A model generated the notes under the pieces. It saw nothing but the letters and a program-made list of their open reading frames with translations. It did no database searches and was not told the DNA's origin. DNA of 64,000 nucleotides from Candidatus Korarchaeum sp. GTDB lineage: Archaea > Korarchaeota > Korarchaeia > Korarchaeales > Korarchaeaceae. This document shows, in pieces, positions 19,262 to 56,128 of this stretch (the first letter of the stretch is position 1; the number at the start of each line of letters is the position of its first letter). The position numbers and the translations under genes were made by a program. The stretch lies in the NCBI GenBank assembly GCA_038888615.1, contig JAWAID010000002.1:399594-463593 (forward strand), written 5' to 3'.

Positions 19262-19473
19262 GGATCGAGATACGGGGTCGCTAGGATTAGTCTCACCGCG
19301 AACCCACCGACGGAAGCTATCGCGAGTATTCGATCACTTTAGCTCCCCCTCAGGTGGTCGGCGAAACTCAACTTGATCGAAGAGACCTAAAGAGGCTCTA
19401 CGGTGGAAAGAGCGACTCACGTAAGTCCGTGTGAAGAGTAAAGTTAATTAGGTTGGACGTCATCCGGTCAGCG

Positions 19474-20220
19474 ATGACCCTGATAAAGAGGCTCCTTGAG
19501 GAACTGGAGGAGCACCCTGAGCTGGCTAAGAAGCTAGCGGAGAAGCTAGCCGCGTATACGATCTCCGTCCAGATGGACAGGCTGGTTAAGCAGATGGGTA
19601 GAATGGCGGAGGAGCAGACGAAGATATGGCAGGAGATAAGGGCCCTGAAGGAGGAGCAGACGAAGATATGGCAGGAGATAAGGGCCCTGAAGGAGGAGCA
19701 GACGAAGATATGGCAGGAGATAAGGGCCCTGAAGGAGGAGCAGACGAAGATGAGAGAGGACTTCAACAAGATACTCGCGGAGATAAAGGAGATCAAGATG
19801 ACGCAGGACAAGCTCAAGGAAGGGCTGAATAAATTGAGCGAGTCCATGATGTACGGTTTTTCGCAGTTAAGCAAGTTCGCCGGCGTTACTTTTGAGCAGT
19901 TCGTTCGTATCCTTCTGACGAACCTCTTCAGGAGGTTCGGGGAGATACCCGAGGACGCTGAGCTCAAACGAGCTACGATAGACGGGGAGGAGGTGGATAT
20001 CTTCCTGGAGGATCCCCTAATAGTGGGGGAGGTAACGGCCCACGCGGAGTCGGACGAAATCGAAAAACTACTCAGGAAGGCTAAGAGGGCCGAGGAGATC
20101 TATGGAAGGAGGGCTAGGCTAATACTTATAGCGGAAACTTCCAGATCGGACGTCGCGAGGGAACTGAGGAGGAGGGCCGAGGAGGAGGGTGTGGAGTTGG
20201 TAATAGGGAAGGAAACCTGA
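19474..20220 (+). CDS. Coiled-coil protein with C-terminal PD-(D/E)XK-like nuclease domain (DUF3782-type)
   Basis: About 248 residues: an N-terminal helix (LIKRLLEELEEHPELAKKLAEKL), a coiled coil of three identical 14-residue units (EEQTKIWQEIRALK), a hinge, then a nuclease-like domain. The core DGEEVDIFLEDPLIVGEVTAH matches the D...(D/E)xx pattern (D-x-F...G-E-V), followed by an EEIYGRRARLILIAE strand. This architecture is common in thermophilic archaea and of unknown function; a DNA or mobile-element role is only suspected. Start ATG 19474, with an A/T-rich promoter about 28 nt upstream; TTG 19453 is possible. A second gene of this design lies at 43856. Confidence 0.75.
   Translation: MTLIKRLLEELEEHPELAKKLAEKLAAYTISVQMDRLVKQMGRMAEEQTKIWQEIRALKEEQTKIWQEIRALKEEQTKIWQEIRALKEEQTKMREDFNKILAEIKEIKMTQDKLKEGLNKLSESMMYGFSQLSKFAGVTFEQFVRILLTNLFRRFGEIPEDAELKRATIDGEEVDIFLEDPLIVGEVTAHAESDEIEKLLRKAKRAEEIYGRRARLILIAETSRSDVARELRRRAEEEGVELVIGKET
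19609..19751 (+). repeat. 42-bp tandem repeat, 3 copies plus partial
   Basis: Units at 19609, 19651 and 19693 are identical at the DNA level, and a 17-bp partial unit follows at 19735. Each encodes two heptads of coiled coil. Base-perfect identity points to recent expansion or gene-conversion homogenisation. Confidence 0.95.
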
Positions 20221-20562
20221 GAGCCCCCTGATCCTCGAGAGCGAACTGAATCGACCCGCGCTCTCACTCCTCCTGATCCGATGCAACTGAAACCGCTCAG
20301 TTCCCCTTCATCCCCTCTACCATCCCGCGTCACAGAGCCATCCGACGATGGGACTCCGAGGGCTCGGCGGTCTCCACCTCGTCATGGATCGCCTCAGGAG
20401 ATCCCCTACCTCAGATCTCTAAGCCATCTTCTGGCTTAACACACATCTTTCCCGCGCTTAGAGGGCTATTCGGTCACTCGTTGAAAGCGGGTTAGGCGGC
20501 AACTCCCAAATGGATGATCTTTATGGACGTTCATAATATCAAGTCCACGATATCCACCAGTC

Positions 20563-20574
20563 ATCTTTATAGTC
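20563..20574 (+). promoter_or_regulatory. TATA box of RNA element A
   Basis: ATCTTTATAGTC, centre about 22 nt before 20591, where sequence conservation with the second copy begins. The second copy has a TATA box at the same distance to within about 1 nt. Confidence 0.5.
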
Positions 20575-20590
20575 CTCACATTTGACATTA

Positions 20591-20712
20591 GGACGTACCC
20601 GATATGCGGCGAGAGAGCCGAATGGGCACGCTATAGCTCCAGATGTGCCTTACCGTTGGCGGCGAAAGCCCCTATATGTGGAGGGACTCATAGATACGAG
20701 TCCCACAACGGT
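20591..20712 (+). ncRNA. Candidate novel structured RNA, copy A
   Basis: Homologous to the element at 55800-55915: 31 of the first 36 bases match, and 22 of 25 match over the segment starting ATGTGCCT at 20643. It is flanked by unrelated DNA. Predicted fold: CGGC/GCCG hairpin near 20607; GGGCAC/GTGCCT stem (20624-20650); closing stem ACCGTTG (20652-20658) with CAACGGT (20706-20712), enclosing a CCCC/GGAGG-type hairpin and a perfect 7-bp hairpin GGGACTC (20683-20689) / GAGTCCC (20698-20704). No shared reading frame is conserved: indels between copies are not multiples of three. I do not recognise the family. Confidence 0.5.
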
Positions 20713-21497
20713 GAAGTTAATCACACCTCCTCGATCCCCCGGTGATGTTGACGCGATGGTCCCTGGAATCGGCAGGAAGCTCCGTCTGGTTACGATGCCC
20801 CCAGCGGTGCTGAGGTCCAGTCTTCGTCGTTCCGCTCATTGGCGGGGTGAACCGGATCCCCGCTCGAGAGATCGGGGCTCGTGGAAGGCCGAGCCTCCCG
20901 ATGTCGAGTCGAGCGAGGAGTCCGCTGACGGGTTCATCGAGGGATCCGGCTCATTGGTCCCTCTTCACGACTCAGGTAACTTCTAAGATATATTACGGCG
21001 CATTCGATCGTGGAAGCCGCAGGTACAGCCCCTCCGGACGCTCCGAAGATCCCACTACAAGCGCTGAGGCGATCGAGAGATGATCCGCCCACCTCGGAGG
21101 ATCACCGCGTTTTCGAACGCGGTAACCCATCGATGCATAGCGACAGATCCTGGGGTCATCGGGAGCGCTCGGACGAGGCAGATAAGGGAGATCGACACCC
21201 GAACTAGCTTCATGTGTCCAAGAAGGTAGGACGAGCCCTCGAACTCCCGATCCTCCACAGCGCTTCAGCTGAGCGAGGCCTCGGCGTGCCGACAAAGCCG
21301 GAGATATTGGAAGCCGACCGAGGAAATACCGATTCTTGTGAAGTCAGTTCCCATCTCACCCCGGAGCCGCCGGGCTCTAGGGATTCTCCCGAACAACTCC
21401 CCAACTGAGCGGAAATACCAGCTCCTCGAGAGCTTTAGGACCTCTGAGCGTTCGAGACACATCGATCATGCATTTCAAAGCTCTAAATTGGTCATAT

Positions 21498-52307: not shown

Positions 52308-53672
52308 ATGCAAAGCCACAACACTAAGCGAGTGCCAAGCTACAGAGCTTACAACATCAAGCATAGATACGATGTCTCAGAGTTCCTAGAAGCGTACAGA
52401 CTGCTGCTTCAGAGGGCTTTGGATGGGATATGGGCTGCGATCGTATGGAAGCATGATAAACGTAACCCAGCAGTATTGAATCCAATAATACCGAAAAGTA
52501 GGAGTTCAAGAAGCAATTGAGGGATAAGTTGATGAAGGATTGGGACTACTCGAAGCATTACGTTGACTCAGCCATAAGGGAGGCCTACAGCCTTTTGAAA
52601 TCCTGGAGGAGGAACTACTTGAAGGGGAGAAGAAAGGGGAAGCCCGTTATAAGGAGGAGGTTCGTTAGGGTAAAGGGAACGCTTTACAGCTACAGAGGAG
52701 GATAAAGATAAGCGTAAGGTCTCATAAGGAGTACTTAATTTTCGATATCTCGAGGGCCTGGTTCTCGAGGATGGTAAAGGAAGGGGAGCTGGGAGAGCTC
52801 ATACTAAGGGAAGAACATCTAACGATAACCTTTAAGTTCAAAGAAAGAGAAGAAAAAACCATTGGGAAGATAGCGTGGGACTGCAATTTGAAAAGTTTGG
52901 ATGGCTTCAATCCGAAGCTGGGATGGATCAGGATCGATTTAGGAAAGCTCTTTCATATCCACAGGGTCTATGAATTGAAGAGGGGGAGGCTGCAGTCTAA
53001 AGCGTTGAGGAAGCCCTCCCTCAAGAGAATTTTAGCTAAATACTCGAGGAGGGAGAGGAACAGAGCTAAAAACTTCGTTCACAAGCTGCCACTTCCCTAT
53101 CTAGGGAGTACAGAAGCTATATACACGGCTTCGAGGATCTGAGGAAGGAGGGGATGTTCAAAAGATCGAGAAAGCATAACAAGAATGCGAGAAAGCATAA
53201 TAGAAAGGTGGCGAAGAGCGATTGGAAGATCATACAATTTTTCATGTCATATAAGGCAAGGGTTGTGATCCTCAACCCAAAAGATACGAGTAGAAGGTGC
53301 TCCAGATGTGGGAAGATTAATAATAAGAATAAGAAGAGGAGGATTAGTACCCCGAAAAGCCTCAACCCTACGAGCTCCGGATGTGGGATGGTTGATGCCC
53401 CGAAGGGAGCTTACGAATGCAAATGTGGGTTGAGGATGGATAGGCAGCTTAACGCTGCCGTAAATTTGTACCTTCAGATGGAGGGTCTTTCTCCGAGCCA
53501 AAAGCTCTTTGAGGAGCTTACGAAAAAGCTCTTCGAGGGGCCGATGAGGGCCCGGAGCGGGTTCGCCCTGACGGGGGAGGAGGCCGATGATCGGGAGACT
53601 GATGAATCCCAAGGGCTAAATGGATATACTTATCCGTACTTAGCCCAGAACCCTTATTACATGTTCCTCTGA
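52308..53672 (+). pseudogene. tnpB: IS605-family TnpB (OrfB) with three frameshifts
   Basis: RNA-guided nuclease of IS200/IS605 elements, broken. Pieces: 52308-52495 (frame of 52308), then GVQEFKKQLRDKLMKDWDYSKHYVDSAIREAYSLLKSWRRNYLKGR, then RIKISVRSHKEYLIFDIS...KIAWDCNLKSLDGF (RuvC-I Asp), then TSLSREYRSYIHGFEDLRKEG (RuvC-II Glu), CSRCG...CKCG zinc ribbon and DRQLNAAVNLYLQM (RuvC-III Asp). All catalytic residues survive; each of the three junctions needs one added base. A homolog of the TnpA transposase is absent. The 3' end at about 53640-53750 could hold the guide RNA/right end. Confidence 0.88.
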
Positions 53673-53808: not shown

Positions 53809-54192
53809 GTGGTCGGGCTCCACCTGAAGTGGTACACTAAGGCCAGGAGGTTCTTGGAGGTCGCCAAGAGGGAACTTGAGGAGGGCTATTATGATTTCGC
53901 TGCTTTCAACTCGCAGCAGGCTGCGGAGTTCGCTTTAAAGGCCATCCTGATAAGGAGGACGGGGTACAGGCCCTACACGCATTCCATAACGGAGCTCCTC
54001 GATGCCCTATCTGAGATATCGGAGGTACCTGACGACGTGAGGGGATGTGAGGGCATAGAGGAGCATTACCTGAAGGCCAGGTATCCAGAGGCCAGGCTGA
54101 GGGAGTACTCGAGGGAGGAGGCCGAGGATGCGATTAGGTGTGCGGAGGTGATACTGAGGTATGTCGAGGGGCTTCTTGAGGAGGAGGGCTGA
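53809..54192 (+). CDS. HEPN-domain protein, toxin-antitoxin type
   Basis: 127 residues: HLKWYTKARRFLEVAKRELEEGYYDFAAFNSQQAAEFALKAILIRRTGYRPYTHSITELL is the classic HEPN opening, in which Gln-Gln-Ala-Ala-Glu marks the family. The RxxxxH RNase motif of HepT is not evident, so it may be a binding or inactive version of the PF05168 type. GTG start behind a TATA box. Overlaps the MNT gene at its 3' end. Confidence 0.87.
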   Translation: MVGLHLKWYTKARRFLEVAKRELEEGYYDFAAFNSQQAAEFALKAILIRRTGYRPYTHSITELLDALSEISEVPDDVRGCEGIEEHYLKARYPEARLREYSREEAEDAIRCAEVILRYVEGLLEEEG

Positions 54193-54580
54193 TGAGGAGA
54201 GGAGGAAAAGCTCGATGCTGAGGGAGATATCATCGAGGTACGATGGGCTGACGGTGATGCTCTTCGGCTCTAGAGCGAGGGGGGAGCATACGGCAGCCAG
54301 CGATTACGATCTGATCGTCATCTACGATGATCCTGATGAGCTGAGGAGCTTCAAGGAGGAGCTTAAGAAGGAGAGGATTCCAGCTGATCTTCATTGTTTC
54401 ACCCTCAGGGAGGCCATTGAGCTTCTGAGGTCCTCAACAGTGCTCCTGGACGCGCTCGAGGAGGGCATCGTCCTGAGGGAGGGCATAGCCCTGGAACCCC
54501 TCAGGGAGGAGATGGGGAGGCTGAAGGGGAAAGGTTACAGGAGGGTGAAGGGGGGATGGATAATCCCCTCAGCCGATTAA
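54161..54580 (+). CDS. MNT-domain nucleotidyltransferase partner
   Basis: 139 residues. The catalytic motif is FGSRARGEHTAASDYDLIVIY (GSRARG-x5-SDYD). RIPADLHCFTLREAIELL completes the fold. Overlaps the upstream HEPN gene by 32 nt. The start is uncertain: ATG 54161, TTG 54176 and ATG 54215 are all in frame, and only the last has a good GGAGG ribosome site, while the charged stretch RRRADEERRK before it looks like normal family N-terminal helix. Second HEPN/MNT pair within 4 kb, opposite in direction to the first. Confidence 0.85.
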   Translation: MSRGFLRRRADEERRKSSMLREISSRYDGLTVMLFGSRARGEHTAASDYDLIVIYDDPDELRSFKEELKKERIPADLHCFTLREAIELLRSSTVLLDALEEGIVLREGIALEPLREEMGRLKGKGYRRVKGGWIIPSAD

Positions 54581-55773: not shown

Positions 55774-55784
55774 CTATATATACA
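55774..55784 (+). promoter_or_regulatory. TATA box of RNA element B
   Basis: CTATATATACA, centre about 22 nt before 55800, matching the spacing at copy A. Confidence 0.55.
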
Positions 55785-55799
55785 TCATATTTATGGCTA

Positions 55800-55915
55800 G
55801 GGCGTACCCGATATGTGACGAGAGATCCGAATGGCCGTCATAGTCATGTGCCTCACCGTCGGCTGCGAAACTCCCCTGTAGGGGGAAGGGACAAAATCTA
55901 TGAGTCCATAACGGT
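55800..55915 (+). ncRNA. Candidate novel structured RNA, copy B
   Basis: Homologous to 20591-20712. The same fold is possible: closing stem ACCGT (55855-55859) / ACGGT (55911-55915), a hairpin TCCCC (55872-55876) / GGGG(A) (55882-55886) with loop around TGTAG, and GGAC (55889-55892) / GTCC (55904-55907). Loop sequences differ between copies while stems are kept; the middle hairpin gains pairs in this copy. The GCGAAA at 55864 is invariant. The indels relative to copy A (for example within 55835-55844) disrupt any common reading frame. Confidence 0.5.
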
Positions 55916-56128
55916 TCACACTCTCCAGCCACTGCGCAGCCTCCGGGTGAGGATTGCTAAGGAGTTCCTCCTTAAAGGTGATCTCCTAGACGATCACGGA
56001 GCTTCTAGCAGATATATCATTATTAGGGGAGATCGCACAGGGTTAAGGGAGGATACCAAAAACAGTTGAGGAATCCGTCGGAAATAAGCTCAATAGGACG
56101 AGAATTTACGATTCCCCTTGAGCTGAAT

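Follow-up and report, generated by a model that had tools for sequence, protein, structure and literature searches.

Two segments of the window (the whole stretch of korarchaeal DNA that was analysed, 64,000 nucleotides) could be assigned with high confidence, as regards their origin and identity, to non-autonomous mini-elements of the IS607 family, based on comparison with the intact transposons of related genomes. As a whole, the results are best explained by non-autonomous IS607 elements which encode stand-alone guide RNAs and use TnpB in trans, an explanation we consider probable. The first-pass annotation had proposed a multicopy small RNA or mobile-element RNA of unknown family. This was right in kind, and the comparison with omega-RNA that it suggested was the appropriate one; the family itself can be recognised, as the conserved blocks correspond to the part of tnpB coding for the zinc finger and to the omega-RNA of an IS607 right end.

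Copies in the genome and their relation to IS607 tnpB

The genome comprises 1.67 Mb and holds the segment as three good copies and two degraded relatives. The relationship between the two window segments reported earlier is real, with an alignment of about 120 nt between copy 1 and the 55.8-kb copy. When window positions 20580-20720, containing copy 1, were used as a query against the whole genome, a third copy was found at C1:867316-867446 (86% identity, E 2.6e-39) and the 55.8-kb copy was recovered at window positions 55798-55915 (76%, E 1.2e-13). The matches between the three copies are far above chance level. A search with a covariance model, as suggested earlier, yielded further copies; the degraded relatives at C1:451563-451699 and C2:222070-222209 (minus strand) gave weak E-values (0.011 and 0.21, respectively), with motifs clear by eye. 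The flanks had been described as unrelated, which does not wholly apply: in the 95 nt upstream of the RNA, copy 1 shows 82% identity to the third copy, and this stretch includes the transposon left end.

In two genomes of the same genus (G011 and G010, the latter of which we take to be Korarchaeum cryptofilum OPF8), the conserved blocks sit within intact or partial tnpB genes, and in K. cryptofilum the DNA homologous to the window segments lies inside intact tnpA-tnpB elements. The first block corresponds to the DNA coding for the tnpB zinc-finger motif (SRMCPICGELNKPNGH), and the second to the end of tnpB together with the transposon right end. An IS607-type tnpA is located upstream of the tnpB genes carrying the blocks; in the genome under study, a protein of this kind contains MerR-HTH and resolvase domains. 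In position and sequence, the right end of the mini-elements is that of the autonomous IS607 elements: CAACGGT in the intact elements, and CAACGGT or TAACGGT in the window copies.

The zinc-finger motif of the window copies carries a 5-nt indel, larger deletions have also contributed to the destruction of the tnpB frame, and a hairpin region of about 70 nt between the two blocks is missing. The earlier statement that indels break the reading frame was found to hold for all three copies, and a protein gene was ruled out by this loss. No tnpB residues could be detected in a search upstream of the three copies, nor any transposase or nuclease gene. With a profile of IS607 left ends, the left end of the third copy (AGCAGTTCCCAAGTAGATA) was the second-best match in about 76 kb (E 0.064), and it is situated at the expected place, where the homology to copy 1 begins. 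The degraded left end of copy 1 (GGGTTAGGCGGCAACTCCCAAATGGATGATCTTTAT; 20489-20525, plus strand) was not picked up by this profile alone and is known from homology to the third copy and from alignment to the left ends of relatives. The whole putative mini-IS607 element of copy 1 extends from 20489 to 20712 on the plus strand, based on the third-copy homology and on the ACGGT end common to intact IS607 elements. No left end could be recognised for the 55.8-kb copy. In the intact elements both ends are conserved, with a GTTAACT motif common to the two. An assignment to IS200/IS605 or to PATEs was rejected, with no Y1 transposase present in this genome and with ends of the IS607 kind. A search for empty insertion sites of the three copies, which would show insertion at a GG target without duplication, revealed no orthologous site.

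The first-pass annotation had set fragments of a protein gene or an IS end against its RNA reading. Formally the blocks are such fragments, but covariation and further copies exist as well, and the RNA reading therefore survives within the IS reading.

RNA scaffold and promoter-like box

The omega-RNA scaffold of copy 1 (20589-20712, plus strand), delimited by alignment, genome search and folding, consists of a P0 stem with an inner hairpin P0b, followed by P1a, the hairpins P2 and P3, and a pseudoknot. P0 with its inner hairpin CGGC-GAGAGA-GCCG occupies 20591-20633 and is a remnant of the tnpB zinc-finger coding DNA, as indicated by homology to the tnpB genes of K. cryptofilum and G011; its pairing is indicated by covariation. 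The loop of P1a holds ACCGTTG (20652-20658), which can pair as a pseudoknot with the 3' strand CAACGGT (20706-20712), at the same time the transposon right end and identical to that of intact IS607 elements; both strands are kept in intact and mini-elements. P3 (20683-20704, GGGACTC/GAGTCCC) stands where intact elements have GGATAGT/ACTATCC or GGGTAGT/ACTACCC, so that the sequence was replaced and the hairpin kept. In intact elements, where P0 is formed by GATGTGCCC/GGGCACATC, the same region folds very stably, at -92 to -107 kcal/mol over 225 nt. ACCGT and ACGGT had earlier been taken for a closing stem. Since ACCGTT is itself enclosed by a stem that covaries (GCC/GGC here, GGGG/CCCC in relatives), the two strands are more plausibly those of the omega-RNA pseudoknot. 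In sequence, the segments show the tnpB 3'-end origin, the stop at the right end and the scaffold pseudoknotted to the 3' end that characterise an omega-RNA. While the reading frame was destroyed, these RNA parts were kept, i.e. P0, the pseudoknot, two hairpins and the right end ACGGT.

MAFFT and RNAalifold misaligned hairpins on the mixed set, and stems were therefore compared by hand. A set of 12 relatives gave 95 paired cells out of 108 for P0, versus a mean of 85 with shuffled strands, and none of 5000 shuffles reached 95; these strands were extracted by hand from related sequences, some of them still coding, so that the shuffle is indicative only. Out of 28 pairs, 25 are kept in copy 1, 27 in the third copy and 20 in the 55.8-kb copy, the rest being broken or gapped, and the broken pairs in the window copies are mostly due to transitions. 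The pseudoknot is perfect in copy 1, has one mismatch each in the third and the 55.8-kb copy, and is invariant in nine relatives. As regards the earlier claim of a retained fold, the minimum free energy of copy 1 is better than that of shuffles (z -3.6). The 55.8-kb copy does not differ from its shuffles (z 0.0), and its degraded scaffold (55798-55915, plus strand; by alignment, genome search and pair count) ends at ACGGT. In the degraded relative on C2 (locus L103), P0 is altered yet still pairs (GGCATCC/GGATGCG) and P3 reads GGGGAT/ATCCCC. No Rfam family matched the window copies at gathering or loose thresholds (E up to 10), and the intact korarchaeal elements gave no match to the Rfam library, RAGATH-18 included.

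The TATA boxes noted earlier are present on the plus strand, TTTATA at 20566-20571 and TATATATA at 55775-55782. TTTATA precedes the RNA by 24 nt in copy 1 and by 18 nt in the third copy. At a distance of 13-32 nt before the RNA, the box was present in 16 of the 21 mini-elements examined and in none of 12 tnpB-linked copies (Fisher p 2e-5, an optimistic value as the copies within one genome are related; background 0.8% per 20 nt). Judged by these counts, the promoter-like box is specific to the mini-elements.

Related mini-elements in other archaea

Relatives were sought by a pattern scan of GTDB genomes followed by frame checks. In Ca. Methanodesulfokora washburnensis, the scan identified six elements built in the same way, all of them lacking an open tnpB frame. 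Over a length of about 225-250 bp, they comprise a left end (for example GGGTTCGTCAGCAGTTCCCAAAAAGTTAACT), then a linker and a TATA-like box, followed by P0, P0b, P1a with the pseudoknot strand, P2, P3 and ACAACGG. The relation of the left end to that of autonomous elements is clear in relatives. Left end and promoter are at fixed places in the mini-elements of Methanodesulfokora, K. cryptofilum and G012, and nine mini-elements of relatives showed 98.3% standard pairs. The covariance model R2, built from nine mini-elements, gave matches in 17 of 34 genomes, a set which counts one genome twice (G022, Methanodesulfokora, equals G061). The hits were sorted by the amount of tnpB upstream, a mini-element in G022 being one with at most 63 tnpB residues. 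Three tnpB-linked copies and at least 10 mini-elements were thereby assigned to Methanodesulfokora, 2-4 mini-elements to K. cryptofilum and at least six to G012, which gave no tnpB match, while Terraquivivens (G064) carries mostly tnpB-linked copies and a few mini-elements. Among Korarchaeota, mini-elements without tnpB are common. Methanodesulfokora possesses three intact tnpB frames of 388-399 aa, the omega-RNA cores of which are 86-100% identical to six mini-elements; for the mini-element L224, core identity amounts to 98-100%.

The same mini-element and right flank are found in two species, at L092 (G010:C1:414770) and L087 (G012:C4:24791). Their alignment begins exactly at the left-end GGG and the left flanks are unrelated, which corresponds to a rearrangement breakpoint at the transposon end. 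Deletion derivatives with an IS607 left end joined to a tnpB 3' end were observed at L139 (Jordarchaeia), L147 (Nitrososphaeria) and L248/L249 (Terraquivivens); given these loci in other archaeal groups, the mini-element layout may be more widely spread. The window copies resemble L064-type tnpB (GGCGGCGAAAGCC) and the other mini-elements the L075 type (GGGGAGCCCCGTTGCCCC), and these two lines of descent indicate that the same compact layout probably arose twice.

Proposed mechanism and alternative explanations

The insertion target of IS607 is GG (PMC6188088), and an IS607 TnpB uses a GGG motif and a guide read from past the right end (PMC10711439). Deletion removed tnpA, almost all of tnpB and one hairpin region of the tnpB 3' end; the left end and the TnpB guide-RNA scaffold (omega-RNA/reRNA) up to the right end ACGGT are left, with a TATA promoter, a gain of the mini-elements, just before the RNA. 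In the mechanism proposed here, an IS607 serine transposase acting in trans would move the mini-element, and whatever sequence adjoins it on the right after insertion would become the guide. The transcript would load onto TnpB made elsewhere, which would cut matching sites beside a GG-type motif. The main such site would be the donor site left empty, and repair would restore the element. A mini-element with its own promoter would in this way make a guide RNA against its own empty site after each move, and would be protected from loss by TnpB acting in trans. That the RNA is transcribed, that it is loaded onto TnpB in trans and that retention benefits are predictions from sequence, and we give about an even chance to some members of the family using their RNA in trans. 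We propose tentatively that Korarchaeota possess mobile guide-RNA genes, each an omega-RNA unit under its own promoter. Such units would have arisen on two or more occasions, from distinct IS607 TnpB lineages, and have been dispersed as mini-transposons; with every insertion a new guide would be taken from the flank for TnpB in trans, and one nuclease would serve many dispersed guides.

Following IS607 TnpB biology (PMC10711439), the predicted guides are the flanks past the right ends, 20713-20732 for copy 1 and 55916-55935 for the 55.8-kb copy (both plus strand). Within this genome, the copy 1 guide gave only its self-match and one 15-nt chance match across the junction of the joined query, and the guide of the 55.8-kb copy had no second match. 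A search for viral carriage gave two pattern hits in IMG/VR, which are one and the same unrelated sequence. Since G012 retains its mini-elements although it gave no tnpB match, they can persist in the short term without a partner.

The genome under study yielded no intact TnpB that would be cognate to the copies (best match 31%). Its ten tnpB zinc-finger matches are all located in frames no longer than about 300 aa, and one IS607 TnpA of 200 aa, intact-looking, is encoded at C1:466 kb; the broken tnpB genes could partly be assembly errors. Given the missing cognate TnpB, the mismatches and the wear of the left ends, we regard the copies in this genome as probable orphans in the course of decay. 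They may even be inert fossils, i.e. IS607 deletion derivatives that were once mobile and now drift, with an RNA structure inherited and unused, which we hold to be moderately likely. Such a state would agree with the lack of a cognate TnpB, the broken pairs, the worn left ends and the absent fold signal in the 55.8-kb copy, but in two comparisons with that copy the RNA is 0.83-0.85 identical versus 0.60 for the upstream 95 nt, and loss of the frame before spread means that the common ancestor moved without coding for protein. Fossil copies in this genome are compatible with a family that is functional elsewhere.

Among the six Methanodesulfokora copies, identity amounts to 32% in the DNA outside, 66% in the linker (left end to TATA), 87% in the left end and 89-91% in the RNA. 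This conservation of the RNA without an encoded protein points to selection acting on the mini-element RNA in these copies; part of the RNA identity could come from tnpB-linked copies, by recent conversion or by descent, because those have the same RNA and a different linker. It seems unlikely that the sequence is kept solely as DNA, as binding or recombination sites of the IS607 transposase without any RNA function. MITE-like elements usually need just their ends, and the conserved left and right ends with the common GTTAACT motif in intact elements would fit this. However, P0 is distant from the right end, yet it covaries and matches the ends in conservation, for which selection restricted to the ends would not account; the promoter box is moreover specific to mini-elements, and P3 changes in sequence between lineages while its hairpin stays.

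Stand-alone RNA genes with promoters, and the right flank which one K. cryptofilum element has in common with G012, could also be expected of guide RNAs domesticated by the host for the regulation of chromosomal genes, like TldR guide RNAs. Such a role is very improbable, given guides without a second match in the genome, copies at different places in each genome and left flanks that are unlike each other even where the locus is shared. The absence of an Rfam match might point to a new riboswitch or another family of small RNAs without any relation to transposons. This was ruled out by direct homology to the 3' ends of IS607 tnpB and to IS607 right ends, and the genomic contexts are varied.

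For the preferred explanation, IS607 mini-elements with an omega-RNA, no direct equivalent was found in the open-access literature. The omega-RNA/reRNA of IS607 TnpB is known from RAGATH-18-derived RNAs (PMC11061315) and from ISXfa1 (PMC10711439). The mini-elements share with these a right-end RNA of the kind found downstream of an IS607 tnpB, with a pseudoknotted scaffold stopping at the transposon boundary and GG at the ends, but stand alone with their own promoter-like box, without tnpB and without a RAGATH-18 match. The PATEs of haloarchaea are gene-less elements related to tnpB-bearing IS of the IS605 type (PMC3119063), and one was reported to be highly expressed (PMC10544981). Like them, the mini-elements are gene-less archaeal mobile elements with ends resembling tnpB-bearing transposons, some PATEs being expressed as ncRNA; unlike the IS605-type PATEs with their near-terminal palindromes, they are of IS607 type, lack such palindromes and have a recognisable full omega-RNA scaffold. 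They resemble MITEs in being short, gene-less and presumably mobilised in trans, but IS607 has no terminal inverted repeats and the mini-elements carry an RNA gene. Stand-alone trans-acting omega-RNAs have been described for IscB, in which the guide RNA is likewise apart from the nuclease gene, although nuclease family and transposon are different.

If the preferred explanation is true, TnpB systems would be separable, with a single nuclease on one side and numerous mobile guide genes on the other. This would place them halfway between transposon-bound omega-RNA and the separate guides of CRISPR. The mini-elements would provide natural, compact and self-promoted omega-RNA scaffolds of about 120-160 nt and reveal which scaffold parts are kept and which are dispensable, the latter being the hairpins that separate P0 from the stem of the pseudoknot. 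Non-autonomous elements would then be predicted to exploit TnpB in trans against loss.

About 2.3 kb upstream of the 55.8-kb copy, the window contains a frame-broken tnpB of another subfamily (52669-53669, plus strand; PF07282), with a right end unlike that of the mini-elements. At 53809-54580 (plus strand), a HEPN-domain gene is followed by a nucleotidyltransferase gene (PF05168, PF01909) in a HEPN-MNT toxin-antitoxin arrangement. The region 19470-20230 (both strands), without annotation or Pfam match, has 65-80% identical repeats in many genomes of the genus, several per genome, and is perhaps another mobile or multigene family.
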